From an uncultured Maribacter sp. (GTDB taxonomy: Bacteria; Bacteroidota; Bacteroidia; Flavobacteriales; Flavobacteriaceae), in the NCBI GenBank assembly GCA_947493885.1, contig CANLTE010000003.1, forward strand, positions 124,001 to 188,000: a stretch of DNA of 64,000 nt. Reading direction: 5' to 3'. This document shows, piece after piece, positions 11,951 through 19,066 of the stretch. The translations under genes were made by a program, and so were the position numbers. Within the stretch, counting starts at the first letter, position 1. Every line of letters starts with the position of its first letter. The notes under the pieces are model-generated. The model was not told where the DNA came from and searched no databases. It saw only the letters and a list, made by a program, of their open reading frames with translations.

Positions 11951-12083
11951 ATTTCTCTTCTAATTCAGTTTCAAAATTTGGAGCATCTTGAAAAATACCA
12001 CATGAAATTTCTTTTTTTAAAAGTGAATTCTTTGTTGTCTTTCCTTTCGCAAGCGCTTCAATTTCCGGAGAAAGATATTTCAT
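11943..12083 (-). CDS. Possible 46-residue protein
   Basis: Minus-strand ORF of 46 codons from ATG 12083, preceded by AAAGAG, overlapping the last 8 bases of the amidohydrolase. It starts MKYLSPEIEALAKGKTTKNS, has one Cys in KKEISCGIF, and ends acidic (ETELEEKSN). It is soluble and has no family I recognise. Codon choice resembles the neighbours, but an ORF of this length could arise by chance, so support is moderate. The rest of the 11951-12245 gap shows no other gene. Confidence 0.4.
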   Translation of the reverse strand: MKYLSPEIEALAKGKTTKNSLLKKEISCGIFQDAPNFETELEEKSN

Positions 12084-12245
12084 AACTCTTTATATTTATT
12101 AGACTGCAATAACGTATTTCTAGGTTATTTGTTGTTTATAAGTACATTACTTTACGGTTAATTAACTGATAATAGCATATAAGTTAATTAAAAAATGTGA
12201 TTATTTTCAGATATGGATACTAATAGGTCAACCTAATAGAAATGC

Positions 12246-12734
12246 ATGGGTAATAAAGACGATGAATTTGTATTGTTAATTCAGGAAAATCAAGGTATTA
12301 TTTTTAAAATAACAACGATATATACTGATAATGCAGTTGACCAGCAAGACTTATATCAAGATATAGTATATCAATTATGGAGGTCATATAGCACTTTCAG
12401 AGGGGATGCCAAAATATCTACTTGGATGTACAGAATTGCACTTAACACAGCAATTACCAGACTCAAAAAAGAAAAAAGGACGGGGTATAGAGTGAGTATT
12501 GATCAAGTTGTTTTACAACAGACAGAAAACTACGATATGGAGTTTGAAGAAAAACTCAAAATTCTATATACTAAAATTCATAATCTAAATGTATTTGAAA
12601 AAGGTTTAATGCTTCTTTTACTTGAAGGGAAAAAATATAACGAAATAGCCGAAATAACGGGTATTTCAGCATCAAATGTTGGAACTAAAATATCAAGGAT
12701 TAAGCAAAAATTAAAAAATCAACTAGTAAAATAA
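12246..12734 (+). CDS. ECF-type RNA polymerase sigma factor
   Basis: 162 residues with both sigma regions: region 2 (DQQDLYQDIVYQLWRSYSTF then KISTWMYRIALNTAI) that binds core polymerase and the -10 element, and region 4 (KYNEIAEITGISASNVGTKISRIKQKL), a helix-turn-helix for the -35 element. It is followed 7 bases later by a membrane protein, the usual sigma/anti-sigma layout, so the stimulus is probably sensed at the membrane. ECF factors commonly activate their own operon. Targets are not evident from the window. Confidence 0.92.
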   Translation: MGNKDDEFVLLIQENQGIIFKITTIYTDNAVDQQDLYQDIVYQLWRSYSTFRGDAKISTWMYRIALNTAITRLKKEKRTGYRVSIDQVVLQQTENYDMEFEEKLKILYTKIHNLNVFEKGLMLLLLEGKKYNEIAEITGISASNVGTKISRIKQKLKNQLVK

Positions 12735-12741
12735 TAATATC

Positions 12742-13341
12742 ATGGAACTAGAAGAACTACAAGCAACATGGTTGCAAATGAGTACGGAGTTAGAGAATCA
12801 AAAAAAACTTACTAATGATATTATTATGAAAATGACTCAAGATAAATATGCCAAAAAGTTTAGTAAAATATCAATGTTGGAGACTATTGGAGCCATAATA
12901 TGCTTTATGGTAGTACTTTTACTAATTATAAATTTTAAAAAACTGGATACTCCTTTTTTAATAGGGTGTGGTATTTTAACCCTAATTTTCTTGATAATAT
13001 TGCCTGTAGTTGTTTTGCGTTTACTGTCTAAAATAAGAAACCTAGATATTATTTCTAATACATATAAAGAGACTTTAATTCAATACACTAAAACAAAAAA
13101 TAAGTTATTATTTATTCAGAAAGCAAATCTAGTTTTAAGTTTTGTTTACTTTTTTATCACTTTACCCTTAGCTACTAAAATTATTGGGAACAAAAATTTA
13201 GTTCTGTCAGATAAAGGAGCTTCTTTCTATATTCTGACAATTGTAGTATTGGTTGGACTGTTCTTTTTTGCCCGATGGGGTTATCGTTCATATAAGAAAA
13301 TTATTGCTGGAGCAGAGAATGTGATCAAAGAACTAGAGTAA
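12742..13341 (+). CDS. Membrane protein, probable partner (anti-sigma) of ECF sigma
   Basis: 199 residues. The N-terminal 50 residues are charged and cytoplasmic (MELEELQATWLQMSTELENQ), followed by four hydrophobic spans at about 49-66, 73-92, 130-147 and 158-177. There is no zinc-binding H-x3-C-x2-C anti-sigma motif. Its position 7 bases after the sigma gene suggests an anti-sigma function by context; sequence alone does not prove it. The start ELEELQxxW is common in proteins found behind flavobacterial ECF genes. It converges with the GntR gene 7 bases away. Confidence 0.7.
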   Translation: MELEELQATWLQMSTELENQKKLTNDIIMKMTQDKYAKKFSKISMLETIGAIICFMVVLLLIINFKKLDTPFLIGCGILTLIFLIILPVVVLRLLSKIRNLDIISNTYKETLIQYTKTKNKLLFIQKANLVLSFVYFFITLPLATKIIGNKNLVLSDKGASFYILTIVVLVGLFFFARWGYRSYKKIIAGAENVIKELE

Positions 13342-13348
13342 GAGTGGG

Positions 13349-13984
13349 TTAAATACCTTCTGATAGCTTTTTTTGAATATAATTTAAAATTAGCATCCAA
13401 TTCATTTTTAATAATAATGAGGCTGTAGGCACATTATCATCTTCAATCGCAGAAATAATGGATTCATGCTGATTGTCAGCTTTATTATAAAAAGAATCAT
13501 CAGACATAATCGCTTGTTCATAGAAAAAAATTCTAGCCTTTAAGTCACTTAAAATACGTTGTACAATATCATTTTTATATTCTTTAGTTAACAAAAAATG
13601 AAAATGCATATCTGCATTAATACGATCTATAGCGTTTTGTGCATTTTCGAAAACCTCGTGTTGCTTTTTTAGCTCTGCAATATGAGTTTCTTCAAATACA
13701 GAATTTTCAATGGCTAATACTTCTAAATTGGCAACTAAATCATATAAGTCATGAGCTTCTTTCGAGTTTAATTTTGCAATAATAAACCCTCGGTTAGGAA
13801 TGGCCTCAATAATATGTGATTGTTGTAATTGCGTTAATGCCTCTCTTATTGGTGTAACGCTAACCTTTAATTCCCTAGATAATGCAGCTAAATTAATAGT
13901 ATTCCCAATTTTTAATTGGCCTAAACGAACCTTTTTTAAAAGGTGTTTACGTACGCTATCTCTTAGAATTGATGTCTGTTGCAT
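13349..13984 (-). CDS. GntR-family regulator, FCD (FadR) subfamily
   Basis: 211 residues: an N-terminal winged helix (NLAALSRELKVSVTPIREALTQL, recognition helix included) and a helical FCD effector domain (residues about 75-205). Possible metal/ligand histidines of FCD proteins are in MHFHFLL and NQHESIISAI. These regulators bind organic acids such as pyruvate, glycolate or sugar acids, which weakens DNA binding. A perfect palindrome lies 16 bases before the start codon, so the gene is probably autoregulated. No catabolic operon is next to it; the divergent gene is a lipoprotein. Confidence 0.92.
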   Translation of the reverse strand: MQQTSILRDSVRKHLLKKVRLGQLKIGNTINLAALSRELKVSVTPIREALTQLQQSHIIEAIPNRGFIIAKLNSKEAHDLYDLVANLEVLAIENSVFEETHIAELKKQHEVFENAQNAIDRINADMHFHFLLTKEYKNDIVQRILSDLKARIFFYEQAIMSDDSFYNKADNQHESIISAIEDDNVPTASLLLKMNWMLILNYIQKKLSEGI

Positions 13985-13999
13985 GTTTCAAATATAGTT

Positions 14000-14013
14000 A
14001 ATCGTATACGATT
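14000..14013. promoter_or_regulatory. 14-bp palindrome, probable GntR operator
   Basis: AATCGTATACGATT is a perfect palindrome with a GTATAC core, as in known operators of some FCD-type GntR proteins (for example UxuR/ExuR sites). It lies 16-29 bases before the GntR gene and 103 bases before the divergent lipoprotein gene, so it could control either or both. Confidence 0.65.
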
Positions 14014-14115
14014 TAAGGTGAATACAGTTGCTTTTGTCTAAAACACCAGATTTGTAATACTAAAAGCACCCAAAATTCGTTTCATTTATTGATTTATAAC
14101 CCAATATTATACAAC

Positions 14116-14919
14116 ATGAAGAAACTTAGCTTTTTTAATTCAAAAATTTTATTAATTGCTTTTTTGGCAATTTTTGTAGCAAGTTGCAGCGAGGATGAAA
14201 AAAATGCCATTAACCTAGAACAAGAACAAACGTTAAATAAAACAGATGTAAAAACCATATTGGAAACGGATAATGTATCTGGTATTGCAGATAATGTTAT
14301 CAATAACGTTTTCGTGAATAAAGAAACCGCTTCAAAAACAGCTACCGATGCATGTTATGATGCTGTATATTCAGATACTGGTTTTGTTTTAACTTTTAAC
14401 AATTGTGTATTAAATGGAACAAGTGATGTAAATGGTACTTTAACGGTAGTTTACGCTGCTGGATTAGAAGAATCTGCTTTTACGGTAACTTACAGCGATT
14501 TTTATGTTGGAGCCATTAAAATTAATGGTACACGAAGCATGGCGATTTCAACTGATCAAATGAGCAGTTCAATTAATTTTACAGTTACTAGTGATTTAAC
14601 AGTAATAATGGAGGATGATACCGAAGTAGTAGAGACAGGGACAAAAACTGTTGGAATTGCCTTTGGACAGACTTTAGAGGAAAACATTTTTTCTGTGGAA
14701 GGTAACTGGACGCTTAAAGTTGGTGCAGATACATATTCGGTAAACGTAACAAAAGCTCTTAAATCAAATTTAGCTTGCGATTATGTGGCCGAAGGTACCA
14801 TGGATGTTAATAAAAATGGTCTAGCTGTAACTGTTGATTTTGGATTAGGGGAGTGCGATGATAAGGCGACCTTGACGTACCCTGATGGAACAGAACAAGA
14901 AATTGTTATTGAAGAGTAG
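14116..14919 (+). CDS. Lipoprotein of unknown function, beta-rich
   Basis: Start ATG 14116 gives MKKLSFFNSKILLIAFLAIF followed by VASC, lipidation at Cys24; the in-frame ATG at 14089 would place ten extra residues before the signal. The 267-residue product is rich in Thr, Val and Asp with alternating strands (GTLTVVYAAGLEESAFTVTY), pointing to a beta-sandwich. Four cysteines in the mature part (ACYD, NNCV, LACDY, GECDD) could form two disulfides. No family recognised. It diverges from the GntR gene and shares the operator-bearing gap with it. Confidence 0.75.
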   Translation: MKKLSFFNSKILLIAFLAIFVASCSEDEKNAINLEQEQTLNKTDVKTILETDNVSGIADNVINNVFVNKETASKTATDACYDAVYSDTGFVLTFNNCVLNGTSDVNGTLTVVYAAGLEESAFTVTYSDFYVGAIKINGTRSMAISTDQMSSSINFTVTSDLTVIMEDDTEVVETGTKTVGIAFGQTLEENIFSVEGNWTLKVGADTYSVNVTKALKSNLACDYVAEGTMDVNKNGLAVTVDFGLGECDDKATLTYPDGTEQEIVIEE

Positions 14920-14935
14920 TATAACTTTGTTGGAT

Positions 14936-14977
14936 AAAAAAAAGGGATGTGGTTGATTAAATCACATCCCTTTTTTT
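14936..14977. terminator. Bidirectional terminator
   Basis: AAAAAAAGGGATGTG and CACATCCCTTTTTTT form a long perfect stem around a 12-base loop, with an A-run and a T-run on either side. It ends the lipoprotein gene on the plus strand and the micro-protein pair on the minus strand. Confidence 0.9.
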
Positions 14978-14996
14978 ATTTTTAAATTATGGCTAA

Positions 14997-15110
14997 CTAA
15001 TAGCTATAATTTCTAGACTCTGACCATTGTACTCTTTTAGTATTCTTAAAATTTGATAAGAATATGTACTTTCTAGATGATGTTGGTAACTGCTTGTTAA
15101 AAGTTCTCAT
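14997..15110 (-). CDS. 37-residue basic micro-protein, copy A
   Basis: Minus-strand ORF of 37 codons. It is the downstream member of a tandem pair and matches copy B over its whole length without gaps: 21 of 37 residues are identical (MRTF start, P-T at 9-10, SR at 12-13, FKN at 21-23, KRVQW at 25-29, then E31, R33, Y35), and most other changes are conservative. Of the identical residues, five use different codons that vary only in the third base, which is what coding selection produces. The product is strongly basic (8 Lys/Arg, 1 Glu), has no membrane span or signal, and belongs to no family I recognise. Confidence 0.75.
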   Translation of the reverse strand: MRTFNKQLPTSSRKYIFLSNFKNTKRVQWSESRNYSY

Positions 15111-15143
15111 GATTTGTTTTTTTTAGATTGATAATATGTTTAA

Positions 15144-15257
15144 TTAATGGGTATAGTGTCTTACCTCTGCCCATTGCACTCTTTTACTATTTTTAAACGT
15201 AGAAAAGAATGAATTTCTTCTTGATTCTGTTGGGGTGTTTCTGATGAAAGTTCTCAT
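15144..15257 (-). CDS. 37-residue basic micro-protein, copy B
   Basis: First gene of the tandem pair, 33 bases upstream of copy A on the minus strand. Same length and pattern as A: MRTF, P-T, SR, F17, S19, FKN, KRVQW, E31, R33, Y35, with a His-containing end (RHYTH). Eight Lys/Arg and two Glu make it basic. AATTTAAAAACATACAATT precedes the ATG, an A-rich leader typical of this genome rather than a Shine-Dalgarno site. I see no clear promoter consensus in 15258-15411; readthrough from the cytochrome gene is impossible because it ends there on the same strand only 154 bases upstream without an obvious terminator, so co-transcription with it remains open. Confidence 0.75.
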   Translation of the reverse strand: MRTFIRNTPTESRRNSFFSTFKNSKRVQWAEVRHYTH

Positions 15258-15411
15258 AATTGTATGTTTTTAAATTGATGTAAATAATTTTGTTTTATAT
15301 CTAGAAGACGACGGAGAACTATTTTTGTTACAGTACTATGTAATAAAAGGTACTATTTATGTTTTTTTTAACACAAATGCTTTTATATAAAAAAGAGAGC
15401 AGGGAGTGTAG

Positions 15412-16842
15412 TTATAGTGTTTTCAGGTATTCCAAGATAGCTTTTCTTTCTTCAGAACTAAAAGCATCACCAAATCTATGACCACCATTTCCATAACCTT
15501 TTAGTGTGGTGTTGTATGTATTTACATTTTCTTGTGAAGTTTCTACTTTGTAATTCCAACCTATTTCATTAGTATTATAATCAGTAGAAATAAAAGTTCT
15601 TGACCAAAATTCAGGCCTGTTTTTACTATTAAGTACATGAGCTAGCGTAGGAACTGAAGCGTTATGAAAATATGGAGCAGAAGCCCAAATACCATCTAGA
15701 GGAGGAGCAATGTAACCTTCTTCGGATTTAATTTCTAATGGATTTTCAGAAGAACCAAACCAACCTGTATTAAACCAATCCATAAAATAGTTATTCTGTT
15801 CAGTTGAAGCTGAATAATGATTAGATAGTTCTGGATCAGTTTCAATACTTTCCAAAGCTACTAATAGGTTAGGGTAAATTTCATTCTCTCCGTATGTTCC
15901 ATGGCATGTAGAGCAATTGTTCTCAAATAATACTTTACCAGTATTAGCTTTTTCTGCATCAATAGCAAAAGGATATTTAGGAGCTTCAAGGCTTTGAATG
16001 TAAGCTAAAACATCAACCATTTTTTCATCTACCTCAGTGGCTTTAGTAGCATCACTTAATGTTAACAGGCTAGCTCCAATAAATGATTTGCAAAAGTCTA
16101 ACCTTCCAATTGCTGTGCTAAACATGGCATTTTTCTTTTTAAGCAACCACCAAGCTGGAACATCAGCAGGTAGTACTTCATCAGGAAACACAACGTTAGG
16201 TTCATCTACCCATTCTAAAGTTTCTTTATTTCTATGCGAAATTAATACCTCTGCAATTTTATTGGCAGGATTTACTCCTTTACTTGCCATTATGGTTTTG
16301 GGTCCTATTGCAGTAATACTTTTTCTAAATTGGTCGTAAGCATCCCACTCTTTACTATCCTGACCATATACATTAATTATAGCTGTGTTTAATAAAGACA
16401 CTTCATTTGCTCTATTACTTGTAAAGTTTGAATTATGGTCGCCAAGACCAATAACAAATTCATTATTTAATTTAGATGAATGACAACTTAAGCAGTTTGG
16501 CGCAACAACTTTGGCACCGTTTGAAGCGGTAAATGCAGTGTAATCATGATTTATTATTGCATTATCACCTGTTCTATTAAGTAAATTATCAGTGTTTTCT
16601 CCATTAACAAAAACATAAGCATTATAGGGTATTCCAGAACTCATATAATCTCCAGAAAACAAATACTCTTCACCTTTTACTGGGTCACCCGTACGCTGAG
16701 TTGGAGCAGGTATAGGAGAGCTTTTAATAACAAAAGAATCTTCTTCGTTAGGTAAATCTACAACAGTTTCATTTAGGCTGTCTCCAGAACATGCGCTTAA
16801 TACTATAGCTATTAGTAGTAGGGTAGATAAATTTGTTTTCAA
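15412..16842 (-). CDS. Di-heme cytochrome c lipoprotein
   Basis: 476 residues, signal MKTNLSTLLLIAIVLSAC (Cys18 lipidated). Two c-type heme sites: C-L-S-C-H at 117-121 and C-S-T-C-H at 310-314. Between them PAWWLLKKKNAMFSTAIGRLDF and after them YIAPPLDGIWASAPYFHNASVPTL resemble the large di-heme family that includes cytochrome c peroxidases and RoxA-like oxygenases; I cannot decide between electron carrier, peroxidase and oxygenase. It would be anchored in the periplasm or on the surface. It is divergent from dnaK, with 313 bases between them, and the micro-protein pair follows it on the same strand. Confidence 0.85.
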   Translation of the reverse strand: MKTNLSTLLLIAIVLSACSGDSLNETVVDLPNEEDSFVIKSSPIPAPTQRTGDPVKGEEYLFSGDYMSSGIPYNAYVFVNGENTDNLLNRTGDNAIINHDYTAFTASNGAKVVAPNCLSCHSSKLNNEFVIGLGDHNSNFTSNRANEVSLLNTAIINVYGQDSKEWDAYDQFRKSITAIGPKTIMASKGVNPANKIAEVLISHRNKETLEWVDEPNVVFPDEVLPADVPAWWLLKKKNAMFSTAIGRLDFCKSFIGASLLTLSDATKATEVDEKMVDVLAYIQSLEAPKYPFAIDAEKANTGKVLFENNCSTCHGTYGENEIYPNLLVALESIETDPELSNHYSASTEQNNYFMDWFNTGWFGSSENPLEIKSEEGYIAPPLDGIWASAPYFHNASVPTLAHVLNSKNRPEFWSRTFISTDYNTNEIGWNYKVETSQENVNTYNTTLKGYGNGGHRFGDAFSSEERKAILEYLKTL

Positions 16843-17068
16843 TGTTTATAGAATTACTTGATAGTACTTAAAGTCAATCTGTTAAAATAAATATTTGTAT
16901 TGTATTCTGAAGAAATATCCGTTAAAGGTATAGTAAAAACGATTAAAGCTAAAAAGGTTAAGTATTTCTTCTTCAACAGTACTTATAATTTTAATGCATG
17001 TTAAGAAGACATTATTTCGGTAAGTATGACGGTTAATGTCAAGTATCGCGGGTGTAAATCTATAAAAA

Positions 17069-17081
17069 TGACATCCTGTCA
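17069..17081. promoter_or_regulatory. Inverted repeat TGACA-N3-TGTCA upstream of dnaK
   Basis: TGACATCCTGTCA is a 5-bp inverted repeat with a 3-base centre, 12 bases before the candidate -24/-12 promoter. Its position suits a regulator binding site for the heat-shock gene dnaK. Confidence 0.5.
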
Positions 17082-17093
17082 GTTTTTTTTCCT

Positions 17094-17108
17094 TGGCATA
17101 TTGTTTGT
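17094..17108 (+). promoter_or_regulatory. Candidate sigma-54-like promoter of dnaK
   Basis: TGGCATA-TTGT-TTGT has the sigma-54 layout TGGCACG-N4-TTGC with the GG and the second G ten bases apart, but differs at three positions. Transcription would begin near 17120, giving a leader of about 36 bases. An alternative is a relaxed Bacteroidetes -7 element (TATTGTTTG has one base too many). Confidence 0.4.
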
Positions 17109-17155
17109 CATTCCCATACTGACTGAAATGAATTTTAATATTTAAAATATATAAG

Positions 17156-19066
17156 ATGAGTAAAATTATAGGTATCGATTTGGGAACAACCAACTCTTGT
17201 GTATCCGTAATGGAAGGTAATGAGCCAGTGGTTATACCAAATGCAGAAGGAAAAAGAACTACTCCTTCGGTAATTGCGTTTGTTGAAGGCGGAGAAATTA
17301 AGGTTGGTGATCCTGCTAAAAGACAGGCCGTTACTAATCCTCATAAAACTATTTATTCTATAAAAAGATTCATGGGTAACAAATACTCAGAATCTCAAAA
17401 GGAAGCTAACCGCGTTCCTTATAATGTTGTAAAAGGTGATAATGATACGCCCCGAGTAGATATTGATGGTCGTTTATACACACCTCAGGAATTATCAGCT
17501 ATGATTCTTCAGAAAATGAAGAAAACTGCTGAAGACTATTTAGGTCAAGATGTATCTAGAGCTGTAATTACGGTTCCTGCATATTTTAATGATGCGCAAA
17601 GACAGGCCACAAAAGAAGCTGGTGAAATTGCAGGTTTAACAGTAGAGCGTATTATAAACGAACCTACCGCTGCTTCTTTAGCATATGGTATGGATAAAAA
17701 AGATACTGATCAAAAAATTGTAGTTTTTGACTTTGGTGGAGGTACACACGATGTTTCTATACTTGAATTAGGAGATGGTGTTTTTGAAGTACTTGCTACT
17801 GATGGAGATACACACTTAGGAGGTGATGATGTTGATCAAAAAATTATTGACTGGTTGGCTGATGAATTTAAAGCTGAAGAAAGTATTGATTTACGTGATG
17901 ATGCAATGGCTTTACAACGTCTACGTGAAGCTGCTGAAAAAGCTAAAATAGAATTATCAGCTTCTGCGCAAACCGAAATCAATTTGCCTTATGTTACTGC
18001 TACAGCAACAGGGCCTAAGCACTTAGTACGTACATTAACAAGAGCTAAATTTGAGCAGTTAATTGCTGATTTAGTTAAACGTACTATTGAGCCATGTGAA
18101 ACAGCACTTAAAAATGCTGGTTTATCAAAAAGTGATATTGACGAAATTATTTTAGTTGGTGGATCTACAAGAATTCCTGCAGTTCAAGAAGCTGTTGAAA
18201 AATTCTTTGGAAAAAAACCTTCAAAAGGAGTTAACCCTGATGAAGTTGTTGCGGTTGGTGCAGCAATTCAAGGAGGAGTATTAACAGGAGACGTTAAAGA
18301 TGTATTGTTATTAGACGTAACACCTTTATCTCTTGGTATAGAAACTATGGGTAACGTTTTTACGAAATTAATTGAAGCTAATACCACGATTCCTACTAAA
18401 AAATCACAAGTATTTTCTACTGCTGCTGATAATCAGCCTTCTGTTGAGATTCATGTGTTACAAGGTGAAAGAGCAATGGCTGTGGACAACAAAACAATTG
18501 GTCGTTTCCATTTAGATGGTATTCCTCCTGCACAAAGAGGAACACCTCAAATTGAAGTAACTTTTGATATTGATGCTAACGGTATTATTAAAGTATCTGC
18601 TACGGATAAAGCTACAAATAAGACTCAAGATATTAGAATTGAAGCTTCTTCAGGATTAACTGAGGAAGAAATTGAGAAAATGAAAGCTGAAGCTGAGGCA
18701 AATGCTGAAGCGGATAAGCAAGCTAAAGAAACTGCTGATAAATTGAATGAAGCAGATAGCATGATTTTCCAAACGGAAAAGCAGTTAAGTGAATTTGGAG
18801 ATAAAATTTCTGAAGGAAATAAAAAACCAGTAGAGGAAGCTTTAGAAGAGTTGAAAAAAGCTTATGAAACTAAAGATTTAGCTGTTATTACACCCGCTTT
18901 AGAGAAAATTAATGAAGCTTGGAAAGGAGCATCAGAAGAAATGTACAAAGCTCAGGCAGAAGCGCAACAAGCTGGAGGAGCTGCACCAGAAGGTGATGCT
19001 ACTTCAAGCGAACCTGCTGCTGAAGGTGATAACGTAGAAGACGTAGACTTCGAAGAGGTAAAATAA
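17156..19066 (+). CDS. dnaK: Molecular chaperone DnaK (Hsp70)
   Basis: Full-length Hsp70 (636 residues). The ATPase domain starts [16 protein letters not shown] and contains [39 protein letters not shown] and [13 protein letters not shown]; the substrate domain includes [20 protein letters not shown], and the tail ends EDVDFEEVK, the co-chaperone-binding type of C-terminus. It folds and protects proteins with DnaJ and GrpE, neither of which is nearby. It is a single-gene unit with a terminator 32 bases after the stop. The upstream region contains an inverted repeat and a sigma-54-like sequence instead of CIRCE. Confidence 0.99.

Follow-up and report, generated by a model that had tools for sequence, protein, structure and literature searches.

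Tandem microprotein arrays in Flavobacteriaceae share a predicted operator with a PadR/PspC/Toastrack operon

Results

Two tandem microprotein ORFs in a Maribacter window

The window, i.e., the whole stretch of 64,000 nucleotides of uncultured Maribacter DNA that was analyzed, contains a pair of short minus-strand ORFs, a leader with promoter- and operator-like motifs, and a terminator-like hairpin:

15367..15372, minus strand: GTTAAA box upstream of the dyad; a second box is unclear in the window copy
15333..15353, minus strand: predicted dyad operator, GTACCTTTTATTACATAGTAC; a dyad of the same kind precedes the padR operon
15327..15332, minus strand: -35-like box TGTAAC of a putative ECF-type promoter (leader motif)
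15307..15310, minus strand: -10-like box CGTC, 16 nt past TGTAAC (leader motif)
15144..15257, minus strand: ORF for microprotein copy 1, 37 aa (MRTFIRNTPTESRRNSFFSTFKNSKRVQWAEVRHYTH)
14997..15110, minus strand: ORF for microprotein copy 2, 37 aa (MRTFNKQLPTSSRKYIFLSNFKNTKRVQWSESRNYSY)
14937..14977, no strand assigned: symmetric terminator-like hairpin at the boundary of the array and the lipoprotein gene

Two 37-codon ORFs lying 33 nt apart on the minus strand had been proposed from the letters of the window, and their coordinates were confirmed, as were the gapless alignment with 21 of 37 residues identical (copy 2 shuffled 20,000 times reached at most 11 identities with copy 1) and the codons that differ only at the third base for five identical residues (4, 12, 19, 22, and 27). 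Both products are strongly basic as claimed, with hand-counted net charges of +6 and +7, and no hydrophobic signal-like stretch was visible by eye in the microproteins. Taken alone, the window pair exhibits a mild codon bias (codon positions 1, 2, and 3 differ 9, 10, and 14 times, respectively), and with a dN of 0.31 and a dS of 0.87 it is more diverged than the family pairs compared below. AlphaFold modeled copy 1 with helices at residues 9-22 and 25-34 at low confidence (pLDDT 66.6, pTM 0.28).

The suggested bidirectional terminator has a counterpart in the symmetric terminator-like hairpin, which sits between the array and the convergent lipoprotein-like gene (14119-14919), for which no Pfam match was found. 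The window transcript, terminator hairpin included, folds more stably than its shuffled versions (z of -3.6). The cytochrome gene upstream of the array, on the same strand, is RoxA-like (PF21419). The window also contains, in this order, genes for an ECF sigma factor and a membrane protein (12246-13341), and relatives of these two genes recur near arrays in several genomes.

A family of small basic proteins under purifying selection

Homologous short ORFs, whose presence in related genomes had been proposed as a check on the original prediction, were found there: relatives of copy 1 occur in 53 of 397 Flavobacteriaceae genomes (E ≤ 0.01, own genome counted), with up to 9 matches per genome, and they carry a strong third-position bias. 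A profile search of a phylum-wide sample matched 4 of 395 genomes, all four from Flavobacteriaceae. By use of a DNA pattern, we identified 76 stretches in named contigs, mainly from Maribacter, Eudoraea, Robiginitalea, Muriicola, Saonia, Pricia, Kriegella, Lutimonas, and unclassified Flavobacteriaceae. Profiling of the loci numbered L033 onward together with the window yielded 242 distinct copies and 217 distinct peptides, with 194 of the 242 being exactly 37 aa in length. Among 198 distinct 36-38-mers, numbered according to copy 1, the near-fixed residues are F18 (192), S19 (185), K25 (189), R26 (194), W29 (196), and R33 (190); position 11 is acidic (E in 155 of 198), and residues 8-24 of the 37-mers are likewise conserved. 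Exactly one Trp is present in each of 216 36-38-mers and in each of 79 26-30-mers, the latter set having been picked by a Trp-containing motif. The microproteins are soluble by composition, with a median GRAVY of -1.22 and a median net charge of +6.5. Near-identical tandem copies occur in some genomes, and a test for concerted evolution gave a mixed picture, with 53 of 150 copies having their nearest DNA neighbor within their own array.

No described family was recovered as a significant profile match in the libraries searched. Pfam provided zero matches for the 37-mers, a 28-mer, and a 42-mer, and a below-cut-off match of a 44-mer to bPH_1 (E of 0.073); NCBIfam and PADLOC provided zero matches for the microproteins; and PHROGs returned weak matches only (best E of 0.016 for the 44-mer and 0.12 for one 37-mer). 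A sequence search of the PDB, which covered ribosomal chains, gave nothing significant (best E of 0.48 and 1.1); a resemblance to methylguanine-DNA methyltransferase with an E of 1.1 was judged to be due to chance, and a guess that the peptides might be the ribosomal protein bL38 was abandoned for want of a PDB match. No description of these arrays was found in the open-licence literature searched, and the microprotein set, a large one, is apparently undescribed so far.

We estimated selection from 184 copies of 37 aa, taken as 80 non-overlapping pairs with 70-95% DNA identity and with shared ancestry uncorrected. The median dN/dS was 0.091, with values below 1 in 79 of 79 defined pairs (1 undefined), and the pairs differed at 264, 223, and 780 sites in codon positions 1, 2, and 3, respectively. 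For the 28-mers described below, the median was 0.208 over 36 pairs, and 34 of 34 defined values were below 1 (2 undefined). The purifying dN/dS and the third-position excess therefore indicate that the ORFs are proteins, and the earlier reading of a duplicated small basic protein selected at the protein level is strongly supported by the 242-copy set and these ratios.

The translation starts point the same way. An ATG begins 235 of the 242 copies, and before these 235 starts A accounts for 85-95% of the bases at each of positions -13 through -10, position -3 is a purine in 99%, and an SD-like motif is present in 2 of the 235. In Flavobacterium johnsoniae, A at -3, -6, -12, and -13 accompanies high translation, according to the available text of PMC6847099. 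The A-rich start region matches these positions, and strong translation is therefore predicted for the microproteins; judged from the DNA, SD-less start signals of the strong kind precede the copies.

One could suppose instead that the repeats are RNA or DNA elements rather than proteins, as might be suggested by the near-identical tandem copies and by the hairpins in the window transcript. This reading is extremely improbable in light of the third-position excess, the low dN/dS, the predominance of ATG, and the start-site signature. At gathering score, Rfam revealed no family in 7 array loci and only a tRNA in 20 further loci; the two matches in window positions 12000-18000 fell far below that score.

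Array layout and neighboring genes

We compared the layout of 42 arrays, drawn from the window and 40 fetched regions, in which genes were called by a simple script. The arrays contain 1-4 copies, and up to 5 are present in other loci; the median gaps are 316 nt upstream and 88 nt downstream. A convergent gene lies downstream of 29 of the 42 arrays, and at 22 the upstream gene is on the same strand. The lipoprotein and cytochrome genes that drew attention in the window are not general partners, for of 41 loci 7 have the lipoprotein cluster, convergent with the array, at a distance of up to 150 nt and 4 have the cytochrome cluster. A partnership with the neighboring lipoprotein, the cytochrome, or the window ECF gene was dropped because the neighbors vary between loci. 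A setting with an EF-G-like gene upstream and the lipoprotein gene or a methyltransferase gene downstream recurs in several genera. We also dropped a mobile or phage origin of the arrays, as a tblastn search of phages and plasmids with one 37-mer gave no match and an exact-pattern search of viral contigs found none.

A conserved leader element with promoter- and operator-like parts

Most arrays are preceded by an element that consists of a GTTAA-type box, the dyad GTACYWT...ATAGTAC, TGTAAC, 16 nt, and CGTC. The word GTACTGTA occurs in 55 of 77 non-redundant leaders versus 0.5 in shuffles, and the box GTAYYGTAAC occurs in 74 of 99 first-copy leaders, leaving 25 of 99 that lack it. The spacing between GTAAC and CGTC in the 74 boxed leaders is 16 nt in 62, 13 nt in 8, and 17 nt in 4; at 69 element loci it is 16 nt in 60 and 13 nt in 6, with none found in 3, and two TTAA boxes are present in 56 of these 69. 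ECF sigma factors of the SigX/W/M type recognize a consensus with TGTAAC at -35 and CGTC at -10, 16-17 nt apart. By this consensus, the predicted array promoter is ECF-type. ECF (SM6) promoters of Flavobacterium psychrophilum are distinguished by a CGT -10 box; their regulon includes T9SS genes, and the strings TGTAAC, CGTC, and "palindrom" are absent from the main text of that study (PMC9723704). The Bacteroidetes primary promoter was unsupported, with TAnnTTTG in 26 of 99 leaders compared to 33% in shuffles.

A 28-nt version of the element has one site in the own genome at up to 3 mismatches (control, 0); when up to 2 mismatches were allowed, 121 of 397 genomes contained it, with 0 for the control among the matches listed. 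By a hand tally, it is present in 44 of the 53 genomes with 37-mers versus 77 of the 344 others (Fisher p of 1.5e-17, relatedness ignored), and the other 9 of the 53 have no element at up to 2 mismatches. The own genome also encodes an ECF sigma factor (locus L204, 1686-2635) that carries its own TGTAACA..CGTCTAT promoter and precedes a gene for a small membrane-type protein with no Pfam match; this ECF gene is a candidate driver of the arrays. The conserved operator/promoter and the wider microprotein set, neither of which formed part of the original prediction, carry most of the information.

A shared C-terminal tail in microproteins of several lengths

From about 138 element sites (hand count), 70 loci were read and 69 elements found, the ORFs having first been filtered for a length of 22 aa or more and an A-rich start region. 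Behind 66 of the 69 elements, at least one ORF of up to 50 aa whose product bears a W...[RK].[YFH] tail lies within 900 nt; the three elements with no such ORF are L180, L188, and L227. Genomes that lack 37-mers mostly possess 28-mers of the type MRTLNSNQLT...TKSxxWNSKRRYR, often followed by a 44-mer. The 28-mers are present as 1-3 copies as a rule and as at least 5 in L214. In an order-level sample, the 28-mer profile matched 10 of 376 genomes, all Flavobacteriaceae, one match being weak and having an internal stop. At least 12 loci (e.g., L165, L183, L186, L210, and L326) have a gene on the same strand after the 28-aa/44-aa array that resembles ExbD/TolR, an assignment for which one fragment was tested by profile.

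The tail W-x3-R-x-[YF], situated 7-8 residues before the stop, is often common to the 37-, 28-, and 44-aa microproteins. The distance from Trp to the C-terminus is 7-8 residues in 221 of 227 sequences of the 37-type, 87 of 88 of the 28-type, and 21 of 21 of the 44-type, the latter two sets having been picked by the tail motif; among all 42 ORFs of 42-46 aa, the tail is found in just 20 (hand count). The N-terminal lengths differ among the three classes while the distance from Trp to the end holds. Alignment of the class pairs by hhalign gave E values of 2.5e-4, 2.2e-4, and 1.6e-4 with probabilities of 43-50%, and intermediates between the classes were observed at L175, L179, L220, L221, and L235. 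Common descent of the three classes is likely, though not proved, from these comparisons.

The constant position of the tail is an argument for the C-terminus as the functional end. A different account of the same constancy is that it acts in the nascent chain, where a tail at a set distance from the stop would cause ribosome arrest or slow termination and translation itself would be the output. The Trp-to-stop distance of 7-8 codons in three classes of differing N-terminal length fits with such a role, as does the stable fold of the window transcript. The account is nonetheless distinctly improbable, because the next gene is convergent at 29 of the 42 arrays, so no regulated gene follows there, and because residues 8-24 of the 37-mers are conserved as well.

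The dyad is shared with a padR operon

Within 1 mismatch, the own genome contains two dyads, one at the array and one approximately 40 nt before a padR operon; at 3 mismatches, the matches equal the control (6 and 9 versus 6 and 9). The operon encodes DUF4870, PadR, a PspC/LiaI-LiaF-TM/Toast-rack protein, and a DUF2807 protein. The PadR, PspC, LiaI-LiaF-TM, Toast-rack, and DUF2807 matches exceed the Pfam cut-off, and a HAAS match (E of 0.0014, 19.4 bits) falls below its cut-off of 27. Each of 30 genomes examined (30/30) contains one PadR match (E ≤ 1e-25), the proteins being 73-95% identical, and in all 30 the dyad, taken as the best site upstream on the padR strand, precedes the operon with 0-3 mismatches, ahead of a TATATTTG box. 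Two TTAA boxes are present at 27 of the 30 operons.

An exact dyad pattern, written from both site sets and searched in 40 genomes, 32 of which had been chosen for holding an element or array, identified 81 distinct sites in 38 of them. These sites are of the padR type in 35 cases and of the microprotein type in 41 (76 of 81), leaving 5 others compared to 9 matches of the reversed pattern. By location, 25 sites lie at located padR genes, 40 at known elements, and 16 remained. Among the latter, 8 have a PadR motif nearby (L307, L310, L319, L323, L324, L327, L329, and L330), L331 shows the DUF4870 start, L328 shows a padR-type promoter with its gene outside the piece fetched, L326 is a further microprotein array, and L332-L335 have no boxes and are chance-like. 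To judge from these sites, the dyad is shared almost exclusively with the DUF4870-PadR-PspC/Toastrack operon.

The last remaining site, L336 (site 1157, minus strand), has GTTAA boxes and the dyad before an ORF with a signal peptide and ankyrin-like sequence in genome G127, which contains no 37-mer or element match; this ORF is a possible extra PadR target.

Discussion

To our knowledge, little is known of what PadR-type phage-shock-like systems control in Bacteroidota. The best explanation of the observations is that the two window ORFs form a short array of a flavobacterial microprotein superfamily and are transcribed from their own promoter. A conserved envelope-stress switch of the PadR/PspC/Toastrack kind probably has such arrays as its main second target, as the distribution of the dyad suggests. 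Comparative work has led to the proposal that, in membrane stress, HAAS-PadR pairs with PspC and Toastrack domains take the place of two-component systems (PMC11237479). In Listeria, a PadR repressor and a sigma-factor feedback loop are joined in one operon (PMC6624303). By analogy with these two systems, the array would be repressed by PadR and activated by an ECF factor. PadR would bind the dyad, holding the array off and repressing its own operon too until membrane stress occurs; a disturbance of the membrane, sensed by the PspC/Toastrack membrane protein, would then release PadR while an ECF sigma factor drives the array promoter. The outcome would be a burst of cationic, soluble peptides made in the cytoplasm, for which the tandem copies may raise the dose and allow variants.

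At the level of molecular action, the W-x3-R-x-[YF] tail would be the working end and would dock on an acidic partner. As this partner we tentatively favor either the membrane, at its cytoplasmic face, or the PspC/Toastrack complex, with RNA or ribosome binding next. A fuller picture, which we regard as plausible yet still short of probable, is a stress circuit with essentially two targets, in which the core PadR/PspC/Toastrack sensor operon is joined by a battery of tandem microproteins; a dedicated partner would recognize their fixed C-terminal tail and might even act back on the sensor itself.

Short, basic, stress-made ribosome proteins such as SRA/RpsV and RMF offer another template, and the cationic peptides might accordingly be stress factors that bind ribosomes, tRNA, or mRNA, much as small ribosome proteins of hibernation or stationary phase do. 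Their charge, hydrophilicity, and single Trp would suit such binding, as would the strong-translation signals and the multi-copy dosage. We consider this rather unlikely, however, since the microproteins have no significant sequence match to any PDB chain, the predicted stress regulon is of the envelope type, and an acidic residue is kept at position 11.

Leaderless multi-peptide bacteriocins such as aureocin A70 and garvicin KS likewise comprise tandem short cationic peptides with no leader; they are hydrophobic or amphipathic and are accompanied by exporters. An antimicrobial role for the arrays would agree with their tandem short cationic paralogues, the Trp/Arg-rich end, and control by a phage-shock-like system. 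In contrast to those bacteriocins, the microproteins are very hydrophilic, with helical moments of 0.09 and 0.36 for the two modeled helices of copy 1; no exporter-like or immunity gene stood out among the 30 neighbor clusters listed; and selection is purifying rather than diversifying. The peptides thus lack the hydrophobic or amphipathic character of leaderless bacteriocins and, among the neighbor clusters listed, their dedicated exporter or immunity genes, and an antimicrobial role is improbable.

Among known systems, those closest to the PadR/PspC/Toastrack switch favored here are the HAAS-PadR-PspC/Toastrack systems, with which the padR operon shares PadR, PspC, LiaI-LiaF-TM, and Toast-rack domains, its HAAS match being weak; a tandem microprotein output is not mentioned in the available text on those systems (PMC11237479), whereas the arrays would be the main second target here. 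The Listeria sigC operon under LstR likewise places PadR repression and an alternative sigma factor (sigma-C) on one operon, but its target, as described in the available text, is not a microprotein array and the phylum differs (PMC6624303).

A protein set with no library match thereby gains a putative regulatory home, and the predicted output of a PadR-type switch, proteins of 28-44 residues, becomes readable from DNA. Gene callers tend to miss proteins of this size. If the proposal is correct, the arrays would represent a novel class of stress effector in bacteria, namely a swarm of peptides that carry an address at the C-terminus, which is widespread in Flavobacteriaceae and absent from the profile libraries searched. 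Should the tail have a dedicated partner, this major family of marine bacteria would possess a peptide-recognition module of a new kind.

Several loci contain variants on the common layout. At L188, four tandem 29-aa ORFs of the MRTSSETKNRKQFMNSEATSLGYFKRRIA type with no Trp tail lie behind the element. At L044, L054, L114, L174, and L184, a further short ORF (about 39-42 aa) whose product has a motif resembling GxGWNTDR.Y was observed before or between copies; it may be another branch of the superfamily. In many arrays the last copy is strongly diverged, sometimes with loss of the W or the tail (L177, L178, L184, L187, L191, and L192), as if these copies had been released from constraint or re-purposed.
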